Assembly: GCF_004011695.2 (NCBI RefSeq)
Contig: NC_082422.1
Coordinates: 1,332,775-1,396,774, forward strand
Direction of reading: 5' to 3'
Length of the DNA stretch: 64,000 bases
Source: Ascochyta rabiei
Taxonomy: Eukaryota > Ascomycota > Dothideomycetes > Pleosporales > Didymellaceae
Below the pieces are notes generated by a model. It worked only from the letters and a program-made list of their open reading frames with translations, was not told the origin of the DNA and ran no database searches. This document shows positions 3,001 to 64,000 of this stretch, piece by piece (position 1 is the first letter of the stretch; each line of letters opens with the position of its first letter). The translations under genes and the position numbers were made by a program.

Positions 3001-3190
3001 AACTTCCATTATTAAGCCGACGGCGAAGATGAATAGGAAGTTGAAAAAATAGTAACACATTAAGGGAATAGCAACTAACAAAGATACCTGGTTAAATAGT
3101 TAGGATACCTAGACTTAGAAAACACATAGGAACCACCTGCGCACCTTACAAGTTGCTACTAATTAGTACGCAAGTACCATAATTCGCAAC
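1..3190 (+). pseudogene. gypsy Pol: protease end, RT, RNase H, integrase, chromodomain (RIP-mutated)
   Basis: Polyprotein that would copy and integrate the element; now dead. The protease end is marked by VILGLP near 145-170, followed by TAG where Trp is usual. RT begins around 655 with KKDGKLQPC and has its active site at 980-991 as YLDN instead of YLDD. RNase H follows (about 1410-1800), then integrase with a CVNC zinc half-site near 2055 and TDGQTER near 2450. A chromodomain at about 3030-3165 contains EVEKIV, YLVK and LGYLD. Chromodomains place it in the chromovirus clade and usually direct integration to heterochromatin. In-frame TAG and TAA are frequent and there is little sign of frameshift, so point mutation caused the decay. 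Confidence 0.92.
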
Positions 3191-3217
3191 AGACTCTTTG
3201 ATTAAACCAAGAGCCCC

Positions 3218-3652
3218 CTAGGTAGCTGGCGAGGCACACATGCCAATGGACGCAGCAGGACAGTTAGGATTAACTTCCTTAGCCAGGTCCAACTTGCCAG
3301 CCTTAACCATCCCATTTGCTAAACACAGCGCCTTTTGCCGCGCGCGTTTATTTACCTGTTTTAGGATTTTCTTATTACGCAATAATTGCGCAATAACAGT
3401 TGTAAGGAGCAACTTGTCTTCTTCTACTTTTTTCTTATACTCCTTACAAGTCTTATCTAACAACGCCTAAGACATGTTTATATATGGCTTGCCGGCCTTT
3501 ATACACTTAGCACACTTTAGACCTTTTAGACTACCTAGCATAATATAGCACTTATAGCCGCTAAAGAAACAATAATTATAGGGGACTTTAGTGGGTGTAT
3601 TAGCTTGGCAGATTTCTAATGCAAGACGGATGTTGCAGGCGTACAAGGACAT
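3218..3652 (-). pseudogene. antisense accessory ORF of gypsy family 1, zinc-binding type plus coiled coil
   Basis: A 144-codon frame running opposite to pol between the chromodomain and the polypurine tract. It starts at an ATG (3650-3652) and is broken once, by TAG at 3467-3469, probably a mutated TGG. The N-terminal half has spaced cysteines (YNYCFFSGYKC, then KCAKCIKAGK). The C-terminal half is charged and leucine-rich (KEYKKKVEEDKLLL onward), likely a coiled coil. One stop in 144 codons contrasts with the riddled pol frame, although a Lys-rich, Gln-poor protein gains few RIP stops. The matching frame exists at 35235-35665. Function unknown; the cysteine layout suggests a zinc-binding nucleic-acid or protein adaptor. 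Confidence 0.6.
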
Positions 3653-3732
3653 CTTAACTTACAGGTTACTAGATGCAGAGATCGCAGATTATATAAAACT
3701 CTAACAGACAATTATATAGTTTAAGGACAAAC

Positions 3733-3752
3733 TAAAGGGGAAGGGGGGATAG
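3733..3752 (+). other. polypurine tract of gypsy family 1
   Basis: Purine run (aaagggg, aagggggg) directly upstream of the LTR start TGTTACGATCC. It serves as plus-strand primer in LTR retrotransposons and fixes the element as plus-oriented. The same tract precedes the LTR start at 35766. Confidence 0.8.
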
Positions 3753-4239
3753 TGTTACGATCCTGTGCTAGGGCACGGCACAAACATAAGTACCAGCCAA
3801 CCAAGACCCCTAACTCTGCTCTAAAGGAACGAACAGTAGAGAAGGACAGAACAGATAGGGATGTTACGTGACTGCTTGTTAATAAGCATAACACACGTAA
3901 CTGCTTATTAACAAGTATAGTACAATATGCTTGTCCACAAGCACCCTTATATATTTTATTAGACTAACTCTAGTTACTTATTAATAAGCACTGTATCTCC
4001 TTAGTATATAGTTAGCAGGAACACAACCCTTATAGTTTGTGTTCAACCTTATTAATTAAGTTTGTCTTTAGAATCTTAACCTGCTCTTGAACTAGACAGT
4101 CTACTCTGTACTATTCATTGCACCCTATCTTCACGAGCTTTGCTTAGTTAATAACCCTTACCGATCCAGTAACCGTACTCATCCCTAAGAACCAATAGAA
4201 TTAGTGCTTACGGTCTTTAACTAAAGTACGACTTCAACA
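3753..4239 (+). repeat. 3' LTR of gypsy family 1, copy 1 (487 bp)
   Basis: Starts TGTTACGATCC after the polypurine tract and ends CTTCAACA, the TG...CA ends expected of an LTR. The same sequence is found at 35766-35779 plus 40888-41449, split by a Copia insertion. The U3-like part holds two units of a 29-bp repeat with a palindromic core (about 3865-3925). The other copy has about five. Confidence 0.9.
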
Positions 4240-4783
4240 TATAGCTGCTAATTTGTTAAACTTAGTAACTGCTCTACTTATCTAGAAGTTAAGCATTTCC
4301 CTTTACGCCTGTAGCTCTCCTTAAGTAATCTCTATTATAAACTAGCTAACTGTAGATCCCTCTATATATAGTATTAGGATATTAGCAACCTTAGTAATGT
4401 CCTTACTCTTAATAGCCTTTAAGACTAATAACTACCACACTACCCCCTCTCCTAGTTCTAGCTCCTTCTGTGCAATTGCCCTTTGCTGCAATATTATAAA
4501 CTTTATGTGTAGTAAAGTAGATATAAAGAAGTTATAAGCTAATGTTATAAGGGGGAGAGTTAGAAGTAACAGGGTAGCTCTGCTTTAAGAGTGTCCTAGG
4601 CAGCTGTAGGCCTGCTTTTCTTCTACATTTTTACTTACTATTTATGTTTTTTACTTACTTTTACTTGCTATAATTGTTAATTGTTTATAAACAGTTATTT
4701 TAGTTATAAGCTGTTAGCTTACACCTTTCTCTATACTTAGTAAGTGCCTAGGCTAAGTTATTTTTACTAGCGTTAAGTTTTAG

Positions 4784-4837
4784 CTAATTAGGAGTCAACT
4801 AGTAAGACCTGGTAACTGCTAATTAGCTTGTAGCTTC
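4784..4837. repeat. 44-bp palindrome, copy 1
   Basis: Near-perfect inverted repeat with 15-16-base arms beginning CTAATTAG and a short centre containing ACTAGTAAGACC. The same sequence occurs at 9207 and 13133 in other contexts. Confidence 0.75.
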
Positions 4838-4959
4838 AGTAGTTAGGATGTTACCCCTTCTATCTTTAGCAGTCTGTCCTATAGACTACACTGCTATTCC
4901 TTATTATTAGAGTCTAAATTTAATAATTTATTATATATTTTATATTACAGTCTTTTGTA

Positions 4960-7900
4960 CTGCGTAAGAGGTTAAGAGTAGATTTTAATACTTAGTAAAT
5001 TGCAACTAGTAGGTGTTCTTCCCTTGTCTGCTAGAATAGGGGTGCTTAAATTCTTAGCAACCTTACTTTTTCTACTCTATAGAAACATGTCCTTATAGTT
5101 TTAATTCTAGGTATCTTCTCTCTATACCTTTATAAGTCCCTTCTCTTCTAACTAAATGTCCTCTAGTAAACGCTTACAGAACTTCTTTATTCTCTACCCT
5201 AGTACTGTATGTAGCATACTAGTCCTGTTAAGGTCTTTAAGTAAATAGGTGCCCCTGTCTAGCTGTATTCTGTTAAGTGACACTTAGTATAGCCTAAGCC
5301 ACTTCTTTCTTAACTTCTTATCTCTAGACATGTTAATTTGTCCTACTAAGTCCTACAGTAGAACTAGGTCTCTAGGGTTAATCTACTTATGCCGAACTTT
5401 GTTGTTATCGTCCTAATATTCCTTTTTTAACGCTCTTAGTTAATTAGTTATGCTAACTGCATCTTTTAGGAACTAATTCTAGAGATCTAACTACATAGCC
5501 CTAATTGCAAGTAGTTAAGCCCTGTTCTTAACCTTCTAGAATAGTAGTGTTTGCTATATTAGTAGTAACAGTTTAATTAGAAGAACTAGGTTCTAGCTAG
5601 TAATAAGTTAATATGCTAAGTATCCTATAGATTGTATAGAGATCCTGTTAGCTAAGAGCACTGTTAGTAGGTTATCTACCTATAACCCCTTAAGCTTTGC
5701 AAGTACGTTAACAATAGGTTTATGTCCACCCTCTACTTTTCCTATTACTTAAGGGTTGTGTGCGGAGGCCTGTACCCTCTTAATACCGTAGATTAAAGTA
5801 AGCCTCTTAACTACTTTAGTAAAGTCTAGTCTGCTGTTAACTATAAGTCTTCTTATAGTGCTCTACCTATAGACAATGTCTTTATATAGGAACTTTACTA
5901 CTGTTAACAACTTGTTATTATAAAGTGCCCTTACCTCTATCCACCTACTTAAGTATTCTCTAGCTGCAACTAGGTACTAGAAGCCTCTGCTTATTAGCAT
6001 GTGCACAATATTAATAGCAACTAACTCCTACAGTGTATAGAAGTAGGTACTAGTTAATATATCCTTTATAATCTTAGTTACTCTAAGTTAGCACTCCTTA
6101 CACGTAGAGATTTTTCTCTTAACACTTCTGTACATATTAAGCTAGTAGTATTATTAAGAGACTATAGAGAACACCGCATTTATACCCCTATAACTAATAG
6201 TTTAGTAGATATCCTATATAACTGTAGTTTAGATATCTACATTATTAACTATACGCCTAATAATAATATTCCTTAATATTTTTTAGAATAAGTAGCTGTC
6301 CCTCTTAAAGAGGTTTATAGCTCTCTTCTTCTAAGCCCTACACTCTTTCCTACTTAACCTAACTAGGGTCTTTAGGAAGTATAGAAAAACAGCAATGTCC
6401 TCTAATTTCTAGAAGTATTCCTGTCTTAGAATCTAGGTAGTCCTTATGTTAACCTGGTTACCTAATACTACGTTTGCTATTAGGTTTTTAACAAACTCTT
6501 TAACGTCAGATTTAGGTTTATCTAGGTTCTCCCACCCCTCTAGCTTTTGGTATCTTAATAGTGCATCTGTAACTATATTCTTCTTTCCTAGTATATAGCG
6601 TATTTTAAAGTCCTAGAGTAGAATTACAGCAAGCTACCTGTTTATAACTAAGCCTAGAAGGTCTAACAACAACCTATTTAGCTAGGTAATTAATATTTAG
6701 GTGTTATTCTTAATAATAAAGTGTATACTATATAGCTACATCCTAAACTTCTTAAGTGCCTAAACAACTACATTGCATTTAAGCTTTGTTAAGTGCTACC
6801 TACTTTCTACCTTAGACTAGATAGTGCTTTTAAATCTGTATAGGTGTTATTTTCTGTCTAGGCCTATTTGTTTAAGGCATGCTCCTGCGCCTTTATTACT
6901 TGCATTAACTAAGAGAAACACTAAACTGGGATTTTTGTGAGATATTGTTATAAGCGCAGGTGTATTAATAATATGCTCTTTTAGGAGTAATATTAAGCTC
7001 TGTTCTGCGTTGCCCTATTGCTATACTGCATTATTCTTTAATAACTAGAATAGTAGCTTTACTTTTAAGGCAAATAAGAGTATCTAGATATAGTAGTAAA
7101 CTACAATTCCTATAAACATCTAGACCTCCTTTAGGTTCTAACACTCTAGCTAATTTGTAATTTTATTAACTTTCTTTTGTGCTGGATATTGTCCTTCTAC
7201 CAAAACTTTGTAGCTAACCACCCCTAATTGATCGTGTCCCTAGTAGCATTTAAGTCCTAACACTGTGCCCCTAGCTCTTTCTACGTCTGTAAGGACCCTA
7301 TCTAGTTACTAGATGTGCTTAAGCATATATCGCCTAACACTAGGTAAAGCCTCCTTACTATTATAATCTATCTTTAGGCTACTGCTAGTAATATTATTAA
7401 GGAAAGGAAGTGTATCTAGCTAGTAATCCTTAAGAATCTTTGTTATAATTCTTTAGAAGACAGCTACTAAGTTAGTAGCCCCTTAAACTAGGGTACATAA
7501 TTATAAAAGGCTAATTAGCGTTATAACTGCTGTTATGTCTCTACTATCTTTGTGCAGTATTATCTAGTTATAACTAGAGAAGAAGTCTATAAGTAACATA
7601 ATCTTATAGCTAGTAAACCTCTTAGAGAACTTGTCTGTAGTTAGAGGGGTTCCTGCATCTTAAACAGAGACCCTGTTTATGTGTTTAGCGTTGTTAATAA
7701 ACTAGAATCTACTGTCTTTCTTAGATACTAAATGCTATAGGTTTCTGTATTAGCTGTTGTATTGCTTATGTGTTCCTTATTCTAATCTTTTGTTTAACAT
7801 CTAAATAAGTTCCCCTTCTAGACTTCTTATAACAGGGAAGGTCTTAACCTGCTAAGCTTTGTGTAGAATTGTCCTAATTTAGTATAGAGGAGAAACCTCC

Positions 7901-45622: not shown

Positions 45623-45731
45623 GTACGGAAGACCTCGCTGGAATTGCTTGATATCGCTTTCATTATTAGCCACTTCCACTATCAGTTACTTCAACCACCA
45701 CCACATAACCAAAGCCCCCTCTTAATTCAAT

Positions 45732-46391
45732 ATGCTCTTCGCCAATACTAAAACCTGGATTTCAGTCCTTCTTGCTTGCAGCTCAATCCCTGCTGCACTA
45801 TCCGCTCCAACCTCCAGCCCTGTCAATGGAGTTGCAATTCGAGATGTTATTTCCCCGCCAGCTCTTGTCGCAGAAGACATCTCTATTCTTGAGAAGGACG
45901 GCGAATCTCGTGTGATCACTGAGCGCAACGCAGCCTCCGACATTCACCTAGCTAAGCGCTACCTGATCGGCTCTCCATACCAGAAGCGAACCATCCAAGT
46001 CGCATTGAAGCAGGCTGTTCACGGAATCACTGCAGGTACCGTTTGGGCATGGGAGATCAGCTACCGCTACTTATCCCCCACTGGAGGCAGGGAGGGTCAC
46101 GTTAGTGGAAACCTAGTCAACGGCCCCGGCGCGTTTTCTTTTACCTCATTTAAAATCGATCAGGCCTTCGTCACCAGCGTCGACGGTATCGTGTCAGCAG
46201 TTTTTGATGCGGTTATCAAAACGACAAACGAGAAGATTCAGTTCGCCTTGACTTGGGCTGAGGATTTCACTACCACTGGTTCTACGCTGGAGAACCATGG
46301 TCAATCCAGCTCGTTTACCTACTTCACTCCCGGCGGTCGCCAAGAACGTTTAGGCCAGGAATTCTTCAAGTTCGCCATACACGAGTCCTAG
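45732..46391 (+). CDS. small secreted protein, effector candidate
   Basis: A 219-residue protein with one exon and no RIP-type stops. Residues 1-25 form a secretion signal: Lys7, hydrophobic WISVLLACS, then small residues ending ALSA. A pro-region follows with two Kex2-type sites, LAKR (73-76) and QKR (84-86). The mature part (about 87-219) is rich in aromatic and beta-prone stretches (TVWAWEISYRY, AFSFTSF). The only cysteine is in the signal peptide, so there are no disulfides, unlike many effectors. Balanced base use and a normal stop set it apart from the AT-rich transposons on both sides. No family was recognised. Effector status is inferred from size, secretion, processing and location. 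It could also be a secreted structural or mating-related protein. Confidence 0.85.
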   Translation: MLFANTKTWISVLLACSSIPAALSAPTSSPVNGVAIRDVISPPALVAEDISILEKDGESRVITERNAASDIHLAKRYLIGSPYQKRTIQVALKQAVHGITAGTVWAWEISYRYLSPTGGREGHVSGNLVNGPGAFSFTSFKIDQAFVTSVDGIVSAVFDAVIKTTNEKIQFALTWAEDFTTTGSTLENHGQSSSFTYFTPGGRQERLGQEFFKFAIHES

Positions 46392-50881: not shown

Positions 50882-51548
50882 TGTCAGATTAGATAGTAAT
50901 AGTAATGAGTTGATGATGATGTATTAATGTTCTGTTCTTGTTCTATGTAAGCTGATTTTTGTCTTATCTAGGTTCTGGTAGGGGCCCCTGCACGGTTTCT
51001 TAGCAGGTATGTCGCCTAACCTATTTCTCTAATACCTTTTATTTAATACACCCTCTTAGTTTAGACTCCTATTACAGGCTACGCAAACTAGTTAATTAAC
51101 TCTTTAACATAAGGTCCTTTAGTTGCTCTTGCATCTTCTTAAGCGGGATATCCCTTAATGTACCCTTCTAGCCCTTAATAAGTCCTAACTAATTAAAAAA
51201 GCTGGCCTATTTACTAATTAGTAACAACTTTATAAATCTATCTACAATTATATTATTTAATAGGATATATTCTACTTTAATTAATTTACAGTTAACTTCT
51301 TATTATAACTAGTAGTTATGTATATTAACAAAATAAAGTTTAGGTTATGTCTTAGTAATATCTATAGTAACTAGACGTATTATCTGTATATTATTATATT
51401 TAATTATTCTTGTTAGATTACTTAGGGTTACCTAAAGCTCTTTTATTAGTTAAGAGGTAAATATTGCTTCCTTAGCTACTTAGGACAGTGCTAGGAGCTT
51501 AGCCTTAGTAGTTAACGTTGTAACAGTATCTTGTTTATTTACTCTCCC
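50882..51548 (-). mobile_element. Copia element A family fragment: LTR plus RNase H end
   Basis: LTR at 50882-51050 (169 bp, TGTCAGATTAGA start). The 3' end of Pol follows to 51548, where the sequence is cut. Reverse complement of 27350-28016, giving a widely spaced inverted repeat of about 650 bp in the window. Confidence 0.87.
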
Positions 51549-51558
51549 AGTGATTATA

Positions 51559-51660
51559 CGAACAAAGACAGTGTATTTGTTCGCTTTGCCTATGTAAATT
51601 TTAGCGTGAGCACAGACACTCGACTGTATTTGTTCGCTTTTTCAGCGTGAATTTGTTCGC
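51559..51660. repeat. short iterated motif TTTGTTCGC (three direct, one inverted)
   Basis: Direct copies at 51576-51584, 51629-51637 and 51652-51660. An inverted CGAACAAA lies at 51559-51566. It stands between the truncated Copia element and the 3' end of the decayed minus-strand gene. The remainder of 51549-51862 shows no gene. Confidence 0.7.
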
Positions 51661-51862
51661 TGTTCCTGAAGTCAAATATTGCTGCAACGATTGCGGAACG
51701 TGTACAAAGTGCGTCCTAATTATATGTTGAATTTCTAGAAGAATTAAGCATACGGTACGTGAGTGGAATATAGTAGATGTTTTAATATTAATGTTTGCAA
51801 TGTTGTAGGGCAGTATTGATAAGGTATGTAGCACAATGTTCAGAGTTGAGCGCAGGTAACAT

Positions 51863-53695
51863 CTACTCTACAGGATGGAACAATTCAAGCAAAGTTAGCT
51901 GACGCAACCGCGGAGCTGGCGTAGGACTCTTCGGCGAAGCATGACTTTGCTCTCTGGTGCTGTCGTCAACGCTGTTGTCAGTTTCGTTGTCTTTGCTGTC
52001 TTGAATCTCTTCCACCTCGTAGATGGTTGCTGGCGCCTCCGCCTCAATGCTCAGCGTTTTCTTCTCGTTGATGGGCCCGCCAGCAATTCCCTCTGGCCCT
52101 AACCAGTTCTTAAGTGCCTTGCTAGCTACACAAATGTCTGGACACTCCTTCTTAAGTAGCTTAATCCAGACATGTAGCTGGCCTACACGGAGGGTGCGTT
52201 CTATCTAGCAATTCGCAATCTCGTCGTGTGGTATCAGGGTCAGAATGCCCCAGCCTAGCTCCTGACTAATAGAGTACCAGCGCATGGCTTAGCCTAACCG
52301 TCGTCTAAACACCTGCTTGTCCTTCTTAGTAGCGTTGGGACTAACTAACTCTACTAGCGCTGCAACTGCCTCTGTGCGGATCTGTCCCTTTCTGTATCGA
52401 TTTCGCGTCCTGTTGTTGCTAGATACAAAGTCGTTATGCTGGATCTGCGCTATCTTGTTAGAGTATGCTTGACCTAGGAGAGCTGACGCCCATTAAGACT
52501 CGATATAGACAGCTGCTAGCTCTGCTTCGTAACGTGTGCACATGTTCCAGGCAAAGCAGAAATCCCTGTCAGCATTGTTGCGCACACTCAGCAGCTGCAA
52601 GCGCTTAGCTCCCGCACCGGTCCTGCTCTGGCTGCCAGCGAGCTCGCCGCCACCTCTGAAGGGTGAGCCACGTTCTCGCCAAGCCTGCAGGAACTGGGCA
52701 GCGTGGTACCGAGAGGACTGGTTTCCAAGCACGCGCGCTTTCTCTAGAAGGGTGCAGGCCGTAAGGTAGGGAGTTTGGGTGGAGCTGTAGAAGTCCGTGT
52801 CATCAGAGACCGGCTGCTTGATGATCCAGGCGACGACGGACTCGTCCTTTTGCACAATAGAGGTGTAGGCAGCCTGCTCTGGAAGAGGAGCCTTGTCGCC
52901 AGGTGCTACCAGACCAAGGGCAAGCCGCTTCTTCGCACGCGAAGTGGCGAGTGTCCTGCTGCGTTTTTGCTCCGCACGGCGGTTGTTGTTAGAGATGGTA
53001 GTGATGTGCAGAGGGGAGTCTTTCAGCTGCTCATCTGGTTCGCTAGGCTGTGACAGCTGAGGGCTGGCTGGATGTGTCTCATCGGTGGTTGTTTGAGCGC
53101 GCTTTGGTGTAGGGGCCGGCGCAGATAGGTGTGGCCGCTTCTTTTGTTGCAGGGGTGGAGCGGAGGCCTGTTGTGAAGGGGAAGCAAAGGGCTTCTGCGC
53201 AGACGGCGGCTCTTCCATCCCGTCCTCCGCAAGCGACTCGGCCGCGCAGACCAGACGATCCCAGATATTGTCAGGCAGGACGTTGTCGGCGAGCGTCTCG
53301 CGCAGAAGCCAGATCGCTGACAAGACGGAGTGGGCAATGAAGACGGGCTTGCAGACGCTGGCATCGTCACAGGTGGGGATCAGCCATCCTGCGCTGTGCG
53401 GACGAGCACCTGGATCACGCTGCGAGCGTGAGATGGTCGCTCGGCAGAAGAAGAGCTTCTTGTAGTCCTCATTCGGCGGCTCGTACGCGTAGTTGCGAAC
53501 GAAGTCAGCTTCGCTGGCCAGAGGAAAGCTCCGACAACCGCCATCAAACCGCTCTGCGGCGCTGTCTAATGCTGCCAACCAGTGCATTATCGACTTGTGT
53601 ACTGCGAATGAGGTTACGAGCGGAAGTTCGGACAAAGGTTGTGCGGAAAGGGGGTTGGGTGTTGTTGAGGTTCTGACGCGGTCACACCGCGGCAC
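51863..53695 (-). pseudogene. unknown 610-codon protein divergent from the helicase gene (decayed)
   Basis: One frame from GTG 53693-53695 to TAG 51863-51865, broken by TAA (52493, 52289) and TAG (52205). All fit CAA/CAG to TAA/TAG, with no frameshift. The first 400 codons are open. The first in-frame ATG is about codon 37 (MHWLAALDSAAERFDGG). The true start may be lost. After an N-terminal globular part (to about 160) come two basic, NLS-like stretches (KKRPHL...PKRAQ and RRAEQKRSRTL...RAKKRL). A second globular part follows (ESVVAWIIKQ, RYHAAQFLQAWRERGSPF, FAWNMCTRYEAELAAVYIES). The C-terminus is acidic and ends RQLTLLELFHPVE. Family not recognised. Nuclear location is inferred. Confidence 0.75.
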
Positions 53696-53884
53696 CGAAA
53701 GTCAGGCCGCGCACGGATGTACCACGACGCCTTCACCAACCAGCGTTAGCAGAGCTGGGAGCGCAATCAAACCAAAAGCAAGATCAATACACAGTCTGTC
53801 AATCAATATACTGGGGGATAGCAAACACTAGGCCAACAGACGTGTTGCATAGCGCCTACTTGTGTCCCTTCTGCTCCTTACACC
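53696..53884. promoter_or_regulatory. divergent intergenic region between the two cassette genes
   Basis: 189 bp separate the two ancestral coding frames. It must hold both promoters, possibly shared. No convincing TATA box was seen. In-frame stops bound both frames (53702-53704 on the minus strand, 53819-53821 on the plus strand). Confidence 0.55.
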
Positions 53885-56800
53885 ATAGAACTATTTGCGC
53901 AGCTGTTTGAACACCGGCCTGAACTTCGAGTCGTAGTTTGTAAACCATGTGCCACCGCTATTCCACCAGCGCAGATCGTTACGCACCTCAAAGAGCGCCA
54001 TCCCAAGGTCACAGTCGCTACGCGCAAGAGCCTGGCGGCAGCTGTACGCGCGCTACCAAACCTTGCGTGGAGTCCAGGAGACGTGCGTGTACCAAGGCCG
54101 GCTAAGGAGCCCGTCTTTGGTCTGAAAAGCCGAGAAGACGGGCTGGTATGCTTGTTGGAGCGTTGTTGGTATACCTGCATCTCGCTGCAGGGCATGCAGA
54201 AACATTGCAAGGATGAGCATGGCTGGGTGAACGAACAAAAGCGAGGGGGAGATATAAGGCAAAAGAGCAAGCACTCGCGCAACCGAGTATGGCGAGACAG
54301 CCAATCCTGCCAGCGCTTGTTCAGAGCTGTTGGCTGGCCGGCGTATGTTGCAGTCGAGACGAGCGTTGGAGCTGCGACTCTAGCAGACATCTCCCAGAGA
54401 GTGAAGGCAGATCGCCAGCATCAGCAAGAAGAGCGTAAGGCAGCAGCAGCGCAGGATAAGATTAAAGAGGGCATCCGTTCGCAGGCTGATCCGTGGCTAG
54501 AGCTCACAGAATGGGTCCCGCACCTACAAGGTATCCCAAGGGCGGCACTTCTGCGCGCTAAACAGCTAGCTGGTGGGGAGGTAGACGCGCGTGGGAAGGA
54601 AGAAGTGGCGTTTGACGACACGGGCTTACGCGATGTTTGCAAAGCTATAGAGCAGCTGATACAAAAAGCGTTTAATAGCAGCCGAGCTGAGGTTGTCAGC
54701 AGACTCGCACTGGAGATTATCGAGCGACGTGAGGCGGGCGCAGAATCGAACGAGCGGCCCTTCTACGCTAGGCATCGAGTCGGTACGATCAAGAAGTACA
54801 GCCAGAAGCTGGTGAGCATCCTCTGCTACCTGTGGCGCACATATGACTAGGTCGAGCAGCCGCCATACAAACTTACCAGCACGCAAGACGCCCTCTTGGT
54901 GTCACTCCAGCAAATAGCCCGCTCAGACGACGCTGCGAAGAAAGAGAAACTGGAAGAGCAATGCCTGCGCTTTTGGATCGCCTTGCTCAACCACAGCCTG
55001 ACTGGCGACGAGCACGAGAGCGCACTGCTGAGCGGAGTGGCTGTCCTCAGCCTCAAGCCTGATCACCATGGCGGTGGGTGGGTTCCGGCGCACGAGTTCT
55101 CGCCAACGCTGTCTGCTTTGATCACTACCTCGAAAGCGCTCGTAGTGCATCATGCCCGCTGCCAGCGAGATAAAGCGCTTCAGAAAGACCCTTGTACAGC
55201 ACCTACTGCGTATGAGCTAGTTAAAGACATGTCTGAACAGTTTATGACGCTGTCCGACTTCAAAGGCACACCTAGTCCTATGAATCGAATGCTCCGCTTG
55301 CGTACGCTAGCTAGAACACAGGCAAAGCGACGTAATACTCCCGGTATCGTGTCGTGGGATGGAGATCGGCTTCTCATTGACAAGCAGAGCTTTTCGCTAG
55401 CCGATCTCCGGTTGATGGTGAAGGGACTCTGCAAGACGGTGCGGTTGCAGCTATTCAAGGACGTCCTACTCTTGGATCTAGACGAAAGGGGTTGCGTGCG
55501 ACCCGGGACCACCCCGCTTCCAGAGGTGTCCGTGGACAAACTCGTCGATCAGCCAGCCGAGCTGGCTACGGGCTGGAGCTTTCTGAAGCACCCCGACAAC
55601 CAGCTAGATAGATAGCAAGACTGGCTTCTAGACCGGGTGTTGGACGAGGCTCCGCTAAGGGAGAGATTCATTCGTAGGATAGATAGCACACAACGGCCGG
55701 AACGGACGCTATGGCGCAATGACGCTGTAGCTAGGTACATGAAAGGAGTGCGTCAGTTTAAAGAAGGCCTCTTCACGCTTGTTCACATGTCTGGCGGCGG
55801 GCCTGGTCGCGGGACAGAGATTACCTCGATACAGTGCGAGAACAGTGCAGACGGGGTGGGGTATCAGGGGGTGTTTGTAGAGGGTGGCCTGGTATCCTTC
55901 ACCACTACGTACCACAAGGGGTATAGCTTCAGCAAGCATGTCAAGACGATCCACCGCTATGTTCCCTGGGAGGTGGGTGAGCTGGTGGTGTACTTCCTTG
56001 GGCTCGGTCGACCGTTCATAGATGATCTCCAGATGCTGCACAATGGCGTTGCCCGCCCTACCGCTTTCATCTGGGAGCCAGAGCCGGAGGAGCAGTGGGG
56101 CGACGAGAGCGATAGCGAAGAGAGCAACGACGGAGACAAGTACGGCGAAGCCGACCGTGAGAAGGCACGATCCGCTAACCCAGACGGGTACTAGGGCACC
56201 GATCGCATACGCCGTGTCCTGCGCAAGCAGACCTTTCAGTACATAAACACCGCTCTCGGCACCCGCGCCTGGCGGCATGCCTACCCAGCCATCCACTGAG
56301 AGCTGGCAAGAGATGGACAAGCACGCGACTGGTTGGAAGTGCTCTACTGGAACAAAGCGCCGGCAAAGAGCAACGCGCAAGCGTTGCAGTCCGGCCACAG
56401 CCTTAAAACAGAGGAGGGCAACTACGGCCGCTCCATGATGGAGTCTCCCTTTCAGACCATGGCCGAGCGGGAGGAGTTCCGGCGGGTGAGCATGGACTGG
56501 CATCGCGTGCTGGAGTTTGCATCCGCCTGGGAGGACGGCCGCATGCACCCCGGTGTTCGCGCGGAGATGGTAGCGCAGCAAGAGAAGCAGGCGCTCCAGC
56601 GCTGGTCGTCGCTCGCGATGGTGGACCTCAAGGCAGAGTTCAGGCGACTCGCTGGACGGCCGGACGCCGAGTATCGTGGCAAGCAAGAAGAAAGCCTCGA
56701 GGCTGTGATGCAGCGACGGCTGCGCGTGCTAGTTGTTATGGCTACCGGCACTGGCAAGAGTATGCTGTTCATGCTGCCCGCGTCCGTCTCGCCAGGCGGC

Positions 56801-58495
56801 GTCTCCGTGGTCGTGGCTCCGTTGAATGCCTTGCGAGACGATCTGCAAGATCGCTGCGACCAGCTCGGCATCCCCTGCGCGAAGTGGGATGGAAGAAGAC
56901 CGCCGTACTGGGCTCGTATTGTGCTGGTGACGCCTGAGAGCGCAGTCACGAAGGCGTTCGGCAGGTTCATTGACGAAAAGCGCATGCTCCATCAGCTAGA
57001 TCGTATCGTGATAGACGAGTGCCACGTGCTGCTGGAGTCGACACAGGACTGGCGGCCAGACCTCCTCAAGATGGTGGAGATGACGGAGAAGGGCACACAG
57101 GTTGTCTACCTGACTGCAACCTTGCCGCCCACGCTGCAGCCCGCCTTCTTGCACACCGCAGGGCTCGATGCCCAGACCGTAACCATATGCCGCGATGAAC
57201 GCACCACGCGAACGAACATTGCGTACCAGGTGCTAGAGTACACACGTGGCACGCTAGAAAAAGTACTTATTAAGCTCGTGGCTGCGAAGAGGAGTAGGTA
57301 CGGACCCAAGGCGCAGATCATCGTCTATTGTCCAACTGTGGACGAGACGAAACAGCTTGCGAAGCTTCTGCAGTGCTCTGCATACTACCGTCAGATGGGC
57401 TCAGACGAGGAAAAGGCACGCATGGTGCGAAGCTTCACCCTAGGCATAGAGAAGCTTTGTACAGCCACGAACATGCTAGGTCTTAGGCTCGACGCTGCAG
57501 GCGTCCAGGTGGTGATCCACGTTGCCATGTGTCCCCTGCTGCTCCAATATGTGCAAGAGAGCGGCCGGGCGGGACGAACAGGGCTCAACAGCAAGTCTAT
57601 TATTATGAGAGCGTGCTATATAACGAAAGAGGGGAGGGTAGAGAAGGCGCTCGGCTACAAGCTGGAGCGACCTGCAAAGGAGTTCATGACAGTCGAATCC
57701 TGTCGGCGAATCGCGATAGACAAGCACATGGACGGCAGACAGAACAGGCAGCAATGCGAGATAGGAGAGTCGAAGTGTGATCTATGCGAGCGACACCCCG
57801 GTAGTACCAAGCGACAAGCCGTCAAAGAAGAGCAGGAAGAGCCAGAGGAGACGCAGGCCGACACCGCGGCGGTGGCAGCAGAGGAGCAGCGCAGATGTAT
57901 AGAGCGAGCTATGGTCGTTAAAGAGCAGAGGGTTAAGATCCAGCAACAGCGAAGGACGGAACAAAAAGTATATGACCTGGAGCGGCTAGAGCAGCACTTC
58001 CAGCGCTGGAGCAATGCGTGCGCCATCTGCATGGCCACTCAGGCTGACCCGGCGCGCCACGACTGGAAGGACTGTTCAAAGGCCAGCAGAGCGCAGATGA
58101 CATTAATGGAGTCTAAGGTGAAATCTATGCACTAAGTGAAGTGGAAGAAGTATGCGCGGTGTTTTTACTGCTGGGCGCCCCAAGCCATCTGCAACAAGTA
58201 GGAGGAAACAAGCATACAGGGTGCGTTTAAGACACAAGGGATGCATGTGCCTTGCCAGTACGATGGAGTGCTCCAGAGAGCAGTAGCTGCGCTGCTTGCC
58301 TGCCAGCCACTGATGTGCACGCCATGGCTGGAGCAGCAGATGTAAGACGCCGCGATTGTGCACGGTAGCGATGAGCTCCGGCTTTACAAGTGGCTCGGAT
58401 TGAAGATCAAGATGGGCCAGAGAGACGCGAGCCAGATGTGTCGTTTCCTATATGCTTGGGAGGAGGGGCATGTGCAGTCGTATTTAGCAGACTAG
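53885..58495 (+). pseudogene. zinc finger / tyrosine-recombinase-like / RecQ helicase fusion (decayed)
   Basis: One frame of 1536 codons, with stops at 54848, 55613, 56192 (TAG), 56297 (TGA), 58133 (TAA), 58199 (TAG) and 58343 (TAA). There are no frameshifts. Residues 19-39 form a C2H2 finger (C19, C22, H34, H39), as in OrsD/DUF3505-type proteins, and 94-112 a second (C94, C98, H107, H112). Residues about 620-850 carry tyrosine-recombinase-like boxes: GPGRGTEI (R642), HKG (K678), RAWRHAY (R797, H798) and GHSLKTEEGNYG (H838, Y847, spacing 9). Residues about 925-1240 are a RecQ core: YRGKQ, MATGTGKS (K958), DECH (1044), TATLP, IVYCPT and QESGRAGRTG. A Cys-rich tail follows (CDLC, CAIC, CFYCW). 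RecQ proteins unwind DNA 3' to 5'. Telomere-linked copies are known in fungi. The recombinase assignment is my inference. Confidence 0.85.
56435..58135 (+). CDS. intact internal ORF covering the RecQ-type helicase core
   Basis: Within the decayed gene, the longest unbroken stretch begins at ATG 56435-56437 (MMESPFQTM) and runs 566 codons to TAA 58133. It contains every helicase box, from the RecQ motif 0 (EYRGKQEESLEAV) through motif I (MATGTGKS), II (DECH), III (TATLP), IV, V (ATNMLGL) and VI (QESGRAGRTG), plus the CDLC part of the zinc region. Motif V reads GLRLD where RecQ proteins usually have GLGID, possibly a Gly-to-Arg mutation that would hurt activity. It could in principle still be made as a shortened helicase if transcribed. 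More likely it is the surviving part of a pseudogene. Confidence 0.5.
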   Translation: MMESPFQTMAEREEFRRVSMDWHRVLEFASAWEDGRMHPGVRAEMVAQQEKQALQRWSSLAMVDLKAEFRRLAGRPDAEYRGKQEESLEAVMQRRLRVLVVMATGTGKSMLFMLPASVSPGGVSVVVAPLNALRDDLQDRCDQLGIPCAKWDGRRPPYWARIVLVTPESAVTKAFGRFIDEKRMLHQLDRIVIDECHVLLESTQDWRPDLLKMVEMTEKGTQVVYLTATLPPTLQPAFLHTAGLDAQTVTICRDERTTRTNIAYQVLEYTRGTLEKVLIKLVAAKRSRYGPKAQIIVYCPTVDETKQLAKLLQCSAYYRQMGSDEEKARMVRSFTLGIEKLCTATNMLGLRLDAAGVQVVIHVAMCPLLLQYVQESGRAGRTGLNSKSIIMRACYITKEGRVEKALGYKLERPAKEFMTVESCRRIAIDKHMDGRQNRQQCEIGESKCDLCERHPGSTKRQAVKEEQEEPEETQADTAAVAAEEQRRCIERAMVVKEQRVKIQQQRRTEQKVYDLERLEQHFQRWSNACAICMATQADPARHDWKDCSKASRAQMTLMESKVKSMH

Positions 58496-58599
58496 AAAGA
58501 ATGTGTTTGATATAACCGTAACCTGAAACCTTAGGTCAGGAGAAGTCAGGAGAAACGTGCTGTAGGCTGACTTGCGACTGCACGGTGATCACAAGTCAG
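58496..58599. other. 3' flank of the helicase gene
   Basis: Contains short repeated ggtcagg/agtcagg phrases. No gene. The C-rich minisatellite follows. Confidence 0.4.
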
Positions 58600-58679
58600 A
58601 AAGTGCAAAACAGCCAAATAGCAACACAGACACTTCAGAGACGTAGAAAGAAACACCCAGAGAAGGGCCACCAACCAAA

Positions 58680-58930
58680 GTAGTCCCCACAACCCGAGTG
58701 ATACCCGCCAACCCGAGTGATACCCGCCAACCCAAGTAGAGCCCCCTAACCCAAGTAGAGCCCCCAACCCATGCGGATCCCCCAACTTAAGTAGAACCCC
58801 CAACCTAAGTAGAGCCCCTAACCCATGCGGATCCCCCAACCTAAGTAGAGCCCCCGACCCAAGTAGAGCCCCCAACCCAAGTAGAGCCCCCGACCCAAGT
58901 AGAGCCCCCAACCCATGCGGATCCCCCAAT
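58680..58930. repeat. 18-bp minisatellite, C-rich on plus strand
   Basis: Units such as aagtagagcccccaaccc alternate with atgcggatcccccaaccc, both 18 bp, in a tract of about a dozen. Because 18 is divisible by three, open frames with repetitive Leu-Gly-Ala translations cross it on the minus strand; I do not call them genes. Confidence 0.88.
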
Positions 58931-59330
58931 CCACGTAGTCAGCACCAACCTGCATAGTTAGCATTAACCCGCGTAGTAAGCATCAACCTGCGCAGTAAGC
59001 ATCAATCCACATAGTCACATGGTCAGCATTAAGCCGCGTAGTCAGCACAAACCTGCGTGGTTCCCTGAGTAGTTCCACAAGTAGTGCGTCAACCCAAGTG
59101 GTTGCCCCACCTGAGTGGCACGTCCAACCCGAGTGGGTCCCCCAATCTAAGTGGTTCCCAAGTAGTTCCCTACGTGGTTCCCCAAGTAGCGCGCCAAGTA
59201 GTGCGCCACCCCAAGTGGTCCGAAAGTAGTCCCCCAAAGTGGCCCGAAAGTGGTCCCCGCAAGCCAAGGGAGTCCACATTAGTGCCCCCAAGTAGTAAGA
59301 GCCGATCATTTAAGAAGAGCCCCCGATCCA
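58931..59330. repeat. degenerate tandem repeats related to the minisatellite
   Basis: Irregular units: gtagtcagcaccaacctgc-like (58935-59055), then caagtggttccc and aagtagtccccc types (59090-59300). A 119-codon plus-strand open frame here is Ser/Pro-rich repeat translation, not called. Confidence 0.7.
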
Positions 59331-59840
59331 GGAAGAGCCCACAATCTGGAGAGAGCAGACCAAACCAAGTGAGTCCCTATCTGAAAGCAGCCGTGCGTAT
59401 TAAAGAAAGTGAGAGTCAGGACAAAGTAAATTTGGATAGATAGTAGAGTAGTTAAGAAAGACATGCGCAATAGGTAGAAGAGCCAGCAGGATGGTGGATG
59501 GGAGAGGTACAAGAAGTTGTTCGTGCAAGAGGGCGTCAATCGTGTTGATCGCGCGAATTTGGATTAGGCAGGGTTGGTTGCTTTGTAAATCGGGTATAAG
59601 AATGAATGGTAGAGGGAAAGGGCATTTGAACAGGGTATCAGGTGGATTGGAAAGATGGAACGGGATGAAAATGACGTGGAGCAAGGTGTTTTGGGCGTTT
59701 ACATAGTATTGTCACAAGATAGAACAGTAGTTAGGGGAAGTTTAGCAAATCCGATTGTGGTGCCGCAGCCTAGAAAGGCATTCCTGAACCCGTAGATGCC
59801 GTAGTGCGTGAGAGAGGGGCGGGCGGAGGGCCTGTCAGGT
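59331..59840. other. subtelomeric spacer, no recognised gene
   Basis: Transition from C-rich to purine-rich plus strand. No domain, element end or convincing frame was found. Confidence 0.5.
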
Positions 59841-60240
59841 GTCACAAAGCAGTTGGGCAGGGCGGTAGAGGGTAAAGGAGAAAGAGGGGAGGTGGGTGGG
59901 GCCGTGATAAGGCATCACGAGCAAAGGATGAAGGAGAGAAGAGAGTAGAATAAGGGTGGGCGGTGGGCCCGTGATAAGGTATCACGGGAGAGGGGGGTAG
60001 AGGGTTGGGCGGGGGGGGCCCGTGGATGTGCCCCCGGAGCGATGCGGTTAAGAGTGAAGGAGGGGAGGTGTTTAAGACCGTGAAGCGGGATAGAGAAGAG
60101 TAGCAGGTAAGCAGGGTGAAGAAGAGAAAGTGGGTGGGCGGTAGGCCCGTCAAGTGTTACACAAGAGTGAAGAGGCAGTTGTAGAGATAGATAAGCGGTA
60201 CAGAGAGCGGTTTTAAGGCGAATTTTTTTCAGCAACGCAA
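59841..60240. repeat. G-rich subtelomeric repeats with hairpins
   Basis: Four to five loose units of gggcggtgggcc followed by an inverted repeat. The best is CCCGTGATA-AGG-TATCACGGG at 59968-59988, a perfect 9-bp stem. Another is CGTGAT...ATCACG at 59903-59919. Similar positions near 59830 and 60145 are degraded. Base skew is strongly purine on the plus strand but cytosine is still present. Confidence 0.7.
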
Positions 60241-60298
60241 TGGTAGTAGCAATTAGAGTAGCGTTGTTCATGCAGCAGTATAACAGCGCGCAAGTAGC

Positions 60299-63200
60299 AG
60301 AGATAGGGTTAAGAGATGTATAAAAGAAGAAAAGGAAAGAAAAGAGAAATAAAAGAATTGTTAAGAGAAGAGAATAGTAGAGAGGATAAAGTAAGAAGAG
60401 AAGTAGAAAAAGGTAAAAAATTGTTAAAAGAGTGTTAGTAGGATAGAAAAGATAGTTAAATGTAGTATTTAATAAAGAGAGAGTGTAAAAGTATTAGAAA
60501 AGATATTTAAAGTGATTAAGATGTAAAGATAGTAAATGAAGAAAAAGATAGAAAATAGAGAAAGATGAAAAGAAAGAATTAAAAAGAGAGAAGAAGTAGA
60601 AGAAGAAGTTAGTTTTTATTAAAAAGATGTAATGAAATAAAAGAGTAGTTTAAAATAGAAGTGAAAAGAAAAGAAAGATAGAAAGAGAAAAAGTTGAGAA
60701 AGAAGAAGGTTAAAAGAGAAAAAGTGTAGAAAGAGGAAGGAAAGGAAAAAGTAAAGTAAAAAGGAAAGTTGTAGTTTGTTAGAAATTTAAAAAGGTTGAG
60801 GAAGAAGTAAATAAGGAGAAAAGAAGAGAAAAGGTATAAAAAGAAGTAAAAAGTAGAGAGTATATGTTTAAAGAGTTTATAAAGAGTTTAGGGAAAGAGA
60901 TAAGAGATAGAAAGAAGAGAGAGATTGAGAAGAAAATTTAGAAAAGTAGAAAGAATAAGAATAGAGTAAAGAAAGTAAGAGGTAAGGATAGAAGAAAGAA
61001 GTAGAAGAAAAGGAAAAGAAGTTAAAAGAGGTTAGTTAAGAAGAAAATAATGTTTAAGAAAGAAAGATAAGAGAGTAAAGTAGGTTAAGAAGAGAGTAAG
61101 AATAATAGGTAGGTGTTAGTATAGAAAGAGAGTATAAGTTTAGAAAAGAAAAGTTAGTAGGGTAAGAAGTAAAAGTAGTGTAAATAAAAGAAAAGAAGAG
61201 AGAAGAAGGTTAAAAAGAGAGATAAAAGTAGAAGGTTTTAAAAAATAAAGAAAGTAAGTTGTAAGAAAGAGAGTAAGAATAAAAGAGAAGAGTAGGGGTT
61301 AAGTGTAGGAGAAGAAGTAAGAGTAAGAGAAAGAAGGTGTAAGGATAAAGGTGGGAATATTAGTATAGGAAGAAAGTGTAATTTTAGAGAGAAAAGTAAA
61401 AAAAAATTAAGTTAGTAGAGTAAAAGATAGAGTAAAGAGTAAATATAGGTGTAAAGAGAGAAGGAAGAAAGTTAAGGTGTTAGAAAAGAGAGTAGTAGAG
61501 AAAAGTAAGTGGAAAAGATGAGTAGAAAAGATAAGAAGAAGAGAGTAAGTATTAGGAGTAAAAAATTAGAGAGAGAAGAGAAAGGTAGAAAGAGAATAAG
61601 TAAGATAGAGAGAGGGTAAGTGAGAAAGTAAGTGTATGTGTTAGGAAGAAGGTAAGGAATAGAGTGAGAGAAAGTAGAGAAGAAAGTAATAGTAATAGTT
61701 AGGTTTTAGTGTGAGAAGAGAGATAGGGTTTGGAGAAAAGTTAGAAGAGTAAAATTTAAAGTTTTAAAAAAGAGAGAAGAAGGAGAATAGGAAAAGAAAG
61801 AGTAGTAGTTTAAAGAAAGATTATTAAAAAGTAGAGAAGATTAGGAGTAGTAGAGTAAGGAAAGGAAAGGATAAGGGAAGTAGAAAGGATAAGAAAAGTA
61901 GAAAGGATAGAGAAAAGTAGTAAGGATTAGAGAATAGGTATTGTGAGTAGAAGAGTAGAGGGAAGAAAAAGATAAGAGAAGAAGAAGTAGGAGAGAGTAG
62001 AATAAAGAGAAGAGTAAAGTAAGGAAGAGAGTAGAGTAAGGAAGAAGGAGAGAATAAGTGTAAGGGTTAGGGTTTTAGAGTAAAAAGAGGGTTAGGGTTT
62101 TAGTGTAAGAAGAGAGGTTAGGGTTAAAGTAGGAGAGAGTGTGGAAAGAGAAGAGGTAGAGGTAAGAGTGTAAGTAAAAGTAAGGAGTAAGGTTTAAGTG
62201 TAAGAGAAGAGTAGAGGTAGGAAAGAGAGAGTAGAGAAGAGGGTGAAAGTAGAAATAAGTAGAAGTAAAGGTAAGGGTGAGGGAGAGAAAGTAGGAGGAA
62301 AGAAGAATTTAAGAGTAAGAGAGGGTAGAGTGTAAGAGGAAGAGTTAAGGAGAGAAGTAGAGAGTAAAGATTAGAAGAAGGAAGAAAGTAGGGATAAGGA
62401 AGAGAAAGTGTAAAGGTTTTAATGTAAGAATAAAGAAGAGTGTAAGAGTAAGTATAAGGGTTTTAGTGTAGGAAGAGGGTTGGGGTTTTAAGTAAAAGTA
62501 GAAGAAAAGAGAAAGATGTAGTAAGTGGTAGAAAAGAGTAGAAGAAAGAGAAGGAAGAAGTAGAATAAGTTAAAGAAAAAGTAGTGTTTAAGAGTTAAGA
62601 AAGTAGGAAAAAGGAGAAGAAAGTAGAGGTAATAAGTAAAAAGAGAAAAGAAGTAGTAGAAGTAGTAGAAGAGGTAGTAGTAGAGAAGGAGTTTAGATTG
62701 TAAAAGGGTTAGGGTTTTAGTGTAGGAAAAGTGTTAGGGTTTTGGTGTAGGAAGAGTAGGTAAAGGTTGAGGAAAAGAAAGGTGAGAAAAGGAAAAAAGA
62801 AGAAAGAGAGTTTTGTAGTAAAGTTTTAGAAAAAGAAGGAGAAGGTGAGTGTAGGTTAAAGAAGAAAGTAAGAGGTGAAAAAAAAGTAAGTAGAAGGAAG
62901 TAAGTGTTAGGAGTAAAAAAGTAGAAAGAGAAGGAGAGTTAAGAAGAAGAATTAAGAAGAAGAGAGTAGAAGTGAAGGTGAAAAAGAGGGAGAAAATGTA
63001 GGGGTGAGGGAGAAAGAGAGTAAGAGAGTTAAAGAAGAAGAGTGTAAGGGTAAGGGGTAGGGTTAAGTTAGAAAGAAGAGTTAGAGGAGTTTAAGGGTTG
63101 GGGAAAAAAGGGTAGAAGAGAAGGAGGTGAAAATAGAAGAGAGGGAAGAAAAGTAAAGTAGAGTGTGAAGAAAGTAAGAAAAGAAAGTAAGAGTAAAAGT

Positions 63201-63898
63201 AGTAGTAGAAAGAGAAGTAAGGATAGAAGGAAAAGTAGAAGAAAGAATAGAAAAGAGTAGAGGAAAAGAAAAGAAAAGGGAAAAAGGGAGTAGAGGTAGA
63301 AGTAGTAGTAGTAGAGAAAAGGGTTAGGGTTTTAGAGTAAGAAGAGTGTTAGGGTTTTAGTGTTAGAAAAGAGGTTAGTAGAGAGAAGTAAGTGGAAAGA
63401 GTAGGAAAAGAAAAAAAGAAGGAAGGAGGTTTTAGAGTTGTAAAGAAGGAAAAAGAAGGTAAGTGTAAGGTGAAGAAGAGAGTAAGGAGTTAAAAAGAGG
63501 TAGGTAGGAGAAGGTAAGTGTTAAGAGTAAAAAAGAAAAGAGATAAGAAAAAGATAGAGAAAAAGAGTTAAGAAGAAGGAGTTAAGAAAGAGTAAGAAAA
63601 AAAGAGGTTAAGGTGAAAGTAGAAGAGAGTGTAAGTAAGAGTAAGGTTTAGGGTTTTAGTGTATGGAAAGAGGGTAGGGTAAGAGAAAAGAAGAGAAAGA
63701 AGAGAAGAGTAGAGGTAAAAGAGAAAGAGTAGAGATGAGTGTAAAAGGAGTAGTAAGTGTAAGTAAAGGTAAGGAAGAGGGAGGGTTTAGAAGTAGGAGA
63801 GGGTGTAAGAGTAAGGGTTAGAAGAAGGAAGAAAGAAAGTAGGAGTAAAGAAGAGAAAGTGTAAGAGTAAGTGTTAGGGTTTTAGTGTAGGAAGAGGG
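60299..63898 (+). repeat. cytosine-free subtelomeric tract (3.6 kb, plus strand)
   Basis: After C at 60298 no cytosine occurs up to the telomere, while G, A and T remain in complex, mostly non-periodic order. It includes diverged long repeats: phrases around 62811 and 63428 match at about 617-bp spacing, and gtgttaggagtaaaaaa-type phrases recur near 61545, 62905 and 63515. Telomere-like phrases (gggttagggttttag) lie near 62064, 62089, 62706, 63319 and 63874. No coding frame of note; TAG and TAA are dense. Confidence 0.9.
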
Positions 63899-64000
63899 TT
63901 AGGGTTAGGGTTAGGGTTAGGGTTAGGGTTAGGGTTAGGGTTAGGGTTAGGGTTAGGGTTAGGGTTAGGGTTAGGGTTAGGGTTAGGGTTAGGGTTAGGG
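63899..64000 (+). repeat. telomere, (TTAGGG)17
   Basis: Perfect TTAGGG repeats to the last base, G-rich strand running 5' to 3' towards the end, as at a right chromosome terminus. The canonical fungal telomere repeat. Confidence 0.99.

Follow-up and report, generated by a model that had tools for sequence, protein, structure and literature searches.

The window, that is, the whole stretch of 64,000 nucleotides analyzed here, forms the right-hand end of contig C18 in the Ascochyta rabiei genome (40.9 Mb, 23 contigs). It carries a terminal element, in which one gene encodes an OrsD domain, a tyrosine recombinase (YR)-like catalytic region, and a RecQ-type helicase core (the YR-RecQ gene). Such a block of about 12 kb was found on most chromosome ends, with its inner side cut at the same base and with different neighbours. 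From the outside inwards, the order is telomere, 3.6-kb C-free tract, short tandem repeats, YR-RecQ gene, divergent second gene, and inner end. The features of the window copy are as follows.

51544..63894, + strand: terminal element, window copy, 12,351 bp; inner end at 51544, outer end at the telomere repeats
51544..51660, - strand: inner terminus, 117 bp, with copies of an 8-bp motif; candidate recombinase-binding site
51866..53701, - strand: second gene, divergent from the helicase gene; 612 amino acids (aa) where open, three in-frame stops in the window
53885..58495, + strand: OrsD-YR-RecQ fusion gene, decayed copy (Pfam domains and frame scan)
53900..54223, + strand: OrsD (C2H2-type) domain (PF12013, E = 2.7e-21)
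55598..56539, + strand: YR-like catalytic region (R 55808, K 55916, R 56273, H 56396, Y 56423)
56684..57583, + strand: RecQ-type helicase core (DEAD and Helicase_C, Pfam)
58655..59263, + strand: short tandem repeats 3' of the helicase gene
60299..63894, + strand: C-free tract (A, G, and T only), a conserved part of the element
63895..64000, + strand: terminal telomere repeats, (AGGGTT)n

A first-pass annotation of the window had described a zinc finger, a YR-like residue set, and RecQ boxes, in this order, in one reading frame. The order was correct, the frame being that of a decayed OrsD, YR-like, and RecQ helicase gene, and the residues named, counted from 53885 (R642, K678, R797-H798, H838, and Y847), were all in place. 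The three parts do lie in one frame, but in the window copy this frame is broken by seven in-frame stops (TAG 54848, TAG 55613, TAG 56192, TGA 56297, TAA 58133, TAG 58199, and TAA 58343) upstream of the terminal TAG at 58493. The sister copy on C5 (P0001, whose residue numbers equal the first-pass numbers plus 21) is open through the OrsD domain, the YR part, and the helicase core, including the first four stop positions. The last tail of P0001 differs in reading from that of the window, which was taken as a frameshift, so that this copy is imperfect too; the copies L011 and L013 reach the equivalent of 58493, as judged by frame length. The Pfam matches in P0001 were OrsD at residues 27-134 (E = 2.5e-21), DEAD at 955-1105, and Helicase_C at 1151-1253, and the TIGR00614 model (recQ_fam) matched the frame at 4.4e-40, under the model's own cut-off.

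The block copies were 96.9-98.3% identical to that of the window over the block, and the non-telomeric part of the C-free tract was 99.4-99.9% identical over 3.2-3.6 kb at three other ends. The outer join to the telomere repeats had the same sequence at all four ends compared. This sequence had 30 exact matches: 26 at most 150 bases from a contig end, three further away, and one, on C12, that is probably also this close. At the inner terminus, the 8-bp motif is present inverted as CGAACAAA at 51559 and in three direct copies as TTTGTTCG at 51576, 51629, and 51652; the rest of the window holds a single extra CGAACAAA, at 54232, and zero extra TTTGTTCG. Across family A, three direct and one inverted CGAACAAA lie within 117 bp of the element end. 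Since the inner end is exact and the outer join constant, both sides of the element are defined. With the telomere repeats included, the window has 3,702 consecutive bases without C (60299-64000).

When 20 other ends were aligned from the telomere, they matched the window end up to one point and then diverged. The last shared bases were TATAATCACTGGGAG in all 21 junctions read, and the flanks beyond differed. The 23-base inner terminus occurred 37 times in the genome with at most three mismatches (30 exact), every one facing inward; 32 of the 37 lay 10.4-12.5 kb from the contig end, given the length deduced for C12, and the other five at 29-45 kb. Among the 22 flanks of family A, 13 matched an older element, in the same orientation and within its 0.1-5.1 kb on the telomere side; the other nine did not match the element. 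Nine of the 13 matching flanks fell in the C-free tract, at 69-87% identity; those of C5-left, C20-left, and C3-left matched an older element outside this tract, and that of C2-left matched perfectly. At C2-left, the inner terminus minus its last G is followed by ACCCTAACCC, which consists of telomere repeats, and then by the normal start of the C-free tract. At this end, a newer element thus sits on the telomere of its predecessor.

Exact inner ends were found in three element groups. All three junctions of family B ended in ...AGTTAG with different flanks, and a third group ended in ...TTTGGGATAG in three of the four junctions fetched, again with different flanks. The third group lies beside YR matches that are 36-38% identical to the focal one and fall outside the seven aligned families described below; its fourth junction, L065, belongs to another subfamily, in which the boundary cannot be judged. 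One exact base beside 21 unrelated flanks in family A, and the like ends of the other groups, indicate that some agent joins this end precisely and repeatedly in at least three groups. Because elements are stacked on older ends that had been cut back, addition seems to take place where an end has worn away.

The inner ends read GGGAG in family A, AGTTAG in family B, GGGATAG in the third group, and GGTTAG, as a candidate boundary, in L065. They resemble a telomere motif whose orientation is opposite to that of the outer CCCTAA repeats. Flank positions +3 and +4 were mostly pyrimidines (20 and 19 of 21 junctions, respectively), which makes a weak target preference possible, although the bias arises partly because many flanks are G-free tracts.

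The YR part had at least 149 matches in the genome, counted from 118 scored candidates out of 143; their identity was 24-100%, and many had stops. On every contig of known length (C12 and C16 left out), they lay within 75 kb of the contig end. Sixteen further loci were translated, with X at stops, and 14 rows were aligned, L032, L033, L034, and L040 being omitted as redundant or partial. The families of this 14-row set, together with one very distant intact frame (family G), gave eight representatives of seven paralogous families; six families were 26-78% identical to the focal copy and one was more distant. R663, K699, R818, and Y868 (P0001 numbering) were invariant in all eight representatives, as were the box I Glu (E666), Y639, Y697, and eleven other positions, and no further Arg or Lys was invariant. 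His was present at H859, nine residues before Y868, in seven of the eight and at H819 in six. The residue set proposed in the first-pass annotation was thus kept in order for Arg, Lys, Arg, and Tyr in every representative, and for His in most. That annotation had named free variation of the Tyr and the two Arg among homologues as the result that would speak against a recombinase; among the eight representatives, all three were invariant. In column shuffles of the alignment, performed on the 14 rows before family G joined and with loose spacing limits chosen after the alignment was seen, a conserved R-K-R-H-Y set with YR-like spacing arose in 80 of 100,000.

Family G is represented by the following frame of 2,131 aa without a stop, in which the region matching the YR profile (at 7.8e-42) is followed by a helicase.

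C2:36500-44500, 8-6400, - strand: family G frame L050, uninterrupted YR-RecQ with a long Ser-rich linker

Further RecQ matches of similar score were seen at C7, C15, C9, and C19, in open frames of 516-2,009 aa.

The domain was also compared with seven YRs (lambda, Cre, P2, HP1, phi 11, XerD, and SSV1). Its box I reads P-x-R-x-x-E, and R-x-x-E is found in six of the seven, with Asp for Glu in lambda. The local profile-profile match to the seven YRs scored 19.2, which was higher than all 100 column shuffles (maximum 17.6), and the alignment placed box I on box I, R on R, and E on the E/D column. By its residues, the recombinase-like domain is a putative YR, and its profile possibly agrees.

Selection on the gene was estimated from the ratio of nonsynonymous to synonymous substitution rates (dN/dS). 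Against the 78% identical family A' (L029), dN/dS was 0.095 for the YR domain alone and 0.10 when 729 codons were counted, values that are only rough because dS is near saturation (1.5), yet lie far below 1. Judged by these codon comparisons, the YR-RecQ gene is under purifying selection. The conservation in seven families and this selection support the earlier proposal that a RecQ helicase is fused to a set of YR-like catalytic residues. When the C5 copy was compared with the 20 other terminal copies, 1,132 of 1,135 differences were transitions, an excess that is consistent with repeat-induced point mutation (RIP). Such mutation accounts well for the in-frame stops seen in the window. RIP-like changes are many in the gene part of the block, in contrast to the near-identical C-free tract.

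Taking the junctions and the conserved residues together, we consider it probable that the YR-RecQ gene is the principal gene in a mobile, telomere-terminal DNA element that is stacked on worn ends, with the YR-like protein possibly doing the joining. The element's own YR-like protein would be the natural candidate for this joining, and RecQ its natural helper. For the first-pass idea of a self-moving element, the exact inner ends beside 21 different flanks are strong circumstantial evidence; the role of the recombinase as the joiner is a part that we infer.

Several observations weigh against this reading. Exact ends imply precise joining by some agent, which need not be the YR-like protein. 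The flank matches in the C-free tract may be inflated, because this tract matches itself, when shifted, at about 66%. All comparisons were made within the genome of one isolate. The dN/dS values for three more distant families were 0.26-0.39, with saturation still higher, and for one distant family the ratio was undefined through saturation. Among the residues, H859 is Arg in all four family F rows of the 14-row set, and one decayed row has Cys at R663. R815, three residues before the box II Arg, reads R, H, I, Q, P, L, L, and S in the eight representatives (R, H, M, I, P, Q, L, or S overall), so that the (H/R)xxR motif of the first-pass annotation has no conserved first position; this position is variable in distant YRs. 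The local profile match to the seven YRs was weak (E = 0.065, probability 0.85%) and placed the Lys two columns off, nine of 100 shuffles scored equally high in the global mode, and an earlier hhalign comparison with whole integrases gave no signal. The focal YR part had no match naming a recombinase in Pfam, PHROGs, NCBIfam, or the PDB sequences. An AlphaFold model from the single sequence of the domain had a mean predicted local distance difference test score of 42.8, too low to read a fold, and a Foldseek search with this low-confidence model returned nothing at E 0.001 and no recombinase among the matches listed. Finally, relatives of the second gene (42-56% identity) lie beside many but not all older YR-RecQ copies. 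Examples were found inward of family B copies (C2, C10, C1, C11, C17, and C3) and of a family C copy (C19), and none was found beside C21:1205801, C1:3349468, C11:17768, or the family G frame (72 of 111 candidates scored).

An alternative is an inner end that is defined otherwise, for example as the end of a linear extrachromosomal form that the host joins to chromosomes by end joining, the YR-like domain then being a DNA-binding or resolvase-like part. The flanks are highly varied, the old C-free tracts break off at scattered points, and the ends look worn, as host end joining would have it; moreover, in the sole unoccupied sister site found (C5 near 12,960 versus C2-right), at most one base is shared at the joint. 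However, a mere binding domain would need no invariant R-K-R-Y set, and we regard this explanation as rather unlikely.

A second possibility is that R, K, R, and Y are kept for another fold, such as a DNA-binding domain of the helicase. No profile or structure match was significant, which would be expected in that case. For residues 560-900 of P0001, no family was found in Pfam, PHROGs, or NCBIfam, and the matches among PDB sequences were only at chance level. A match to PF20552 ("recombinase-like helix-turn-helix") in one of eight rows (E = 0.51) was taken as chance, a PF00589 search of the whole genome gave zero matches, and searches of viral, prokaryote, and plasmid collections gave zero relatives. 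Nevertheless, the whole set, its order, the nine-residue step from H to Y, and the box I Glu agree with a YR, and the column shuffles seldom reproduced such a set. Another fold is therefore improbable in our judgment.

About equally improbable is an ordinary subtelomeric repeat that is spread by homologous recombination or break-induced replication between ends and is no longer mobile, for although exchange between ends surely contributes and the copies are as alike over the block, and more so near the telomere, as concerted evolution would make them, it leaves unexplained the same last base at 21 unrelated flanks and the like pattern in two other groups.

If the YR-RecQ protein is the joining agent, the YR-like domain would bind the repeat motifs at the inner terminus, would cut the terminus through Tyr868 (847 in the first-pass numbering), and would attach the cut inner end to a chromosome whose own end is worn. 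The RecQ motor would open or copy DNA during the joining. The new element copy would bring a telomere and so restore the chromosome end. Later homologous recombination between ends may keep the copies alike, and RIP-like mutation would break many of them.

Telomere-linked helicase (TLH) genes lie at the chromosome ends of several fungi, and one report calls their function currently unclear (PMC11893274). All 24 subtelomeres of Colletotrichum are reported to have such repeats, which contain helicase and DUF3505 domains and were classed among transposable elements (PMC5576322). For the subtelomeric RecQ genes of Agaricus and other fungi, one study reports no domain besides the helicase core (PMC7473861). 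The element resembles the TLH genes (Magnaporthe, Metarhizium, Ustilago, Fusarium, and S. pombe tlh) in having many-copy RecQ-like helicase genes adjoining telomeres, and the combination of OrsD (DUF3505) with a helicase is that of the Colletotrichum repeats (PMC5576322). In A. rabiei, a RecQ-like helicase core is encoded next to telomeres in many copies, which places the gene among the TLH genes. The YR-like domain, the second gene, and the exact inner end of the Ascochyta element are the differences. No report of a recombinase domain in TLH genes was found in the literature searched, part of the TLH papers and the bioRxiv preprints lying outside the search; with this reservation, the kind of element is new within the literature covered.

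Other mobile elements share single features with it. Like the Cryptons and other YR DNA transposons, it has a YR catalytic set in a eukaryotic element without a reverse transcriptase match. To our knowledge, Cryptons are YR elements dispersed in the genome, with no helicase and no telomere; a Crypton was rejected, since a helicase is fused here and the copies lie near chromosome ends. Starship captains (DUF3435) are fungal YRs at one end of a mobile element, and the likeness is that of a fungal YR in such an element. A Starship was rejected because PF11917 had no match in P0001 and the element has 12.35 kb and two genes, as opposed to a large cargo. Sixteen DUF3435 captain-like matches were seen on C9, C7, C18, C15, C12, C20, and C8, mostly with stops and away from ends. 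Helitrons have a helicase fused to a tyrosine-based nuclease, with a Pif1 helicase and an HUH set. The fusion of a helicase with a tyrosine-based enzyme is the likeness, and a Helitron was rejected on these features, the helicase being RecQ rather than Pif1 and the catalytic set YR-like rather than HUH. MoTeR and HeT-A are added at telomeres in a fixed orientation. The same is reported for FoTeR (PMC12857005). This fixed-orientation addition at telomeres is seen in the Ascochyta element as well; unlike these telomere-targeted retrotransposons, its two genes had no Pfam match to a reverse transcriptase.

We tentatively propose that fungal telomere-linked helicases may be transposases of a class of chromosome-capping DNA elements, whose recombinase-helicase attaches a prefabricated telomere cassette to worn ends. 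The terminal position and the many copies of TLH genes would follow from a YR-like domain and an exact inner element end. If the proposal is true, a DNA element would rebuild chromosome ends in the way that retrotransposons rebuild those of the fly, and a DNA-based route would be added to those by which mobile elements are known to lengthen or mend the ends of chromosomes. The claim can be tested on one Tyr residue, on a 117-bp terminus with repeated motifs, and on a joint after a known base.

Inward of the element, positions 1-51500 of the window are AT-rich with few open frames (two of at least 110 aa), and a 221-aa frame at 45726-46391 had no Pfam match. A second copy of the block further inside the window was looked for, and none was found. 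The second gene of the element likewise had no Pfam match. Near the end of its frame P0004 (L020:7298-9133) stands RQLTLLELF, which we take to resemble a PCNA-binding peptide.

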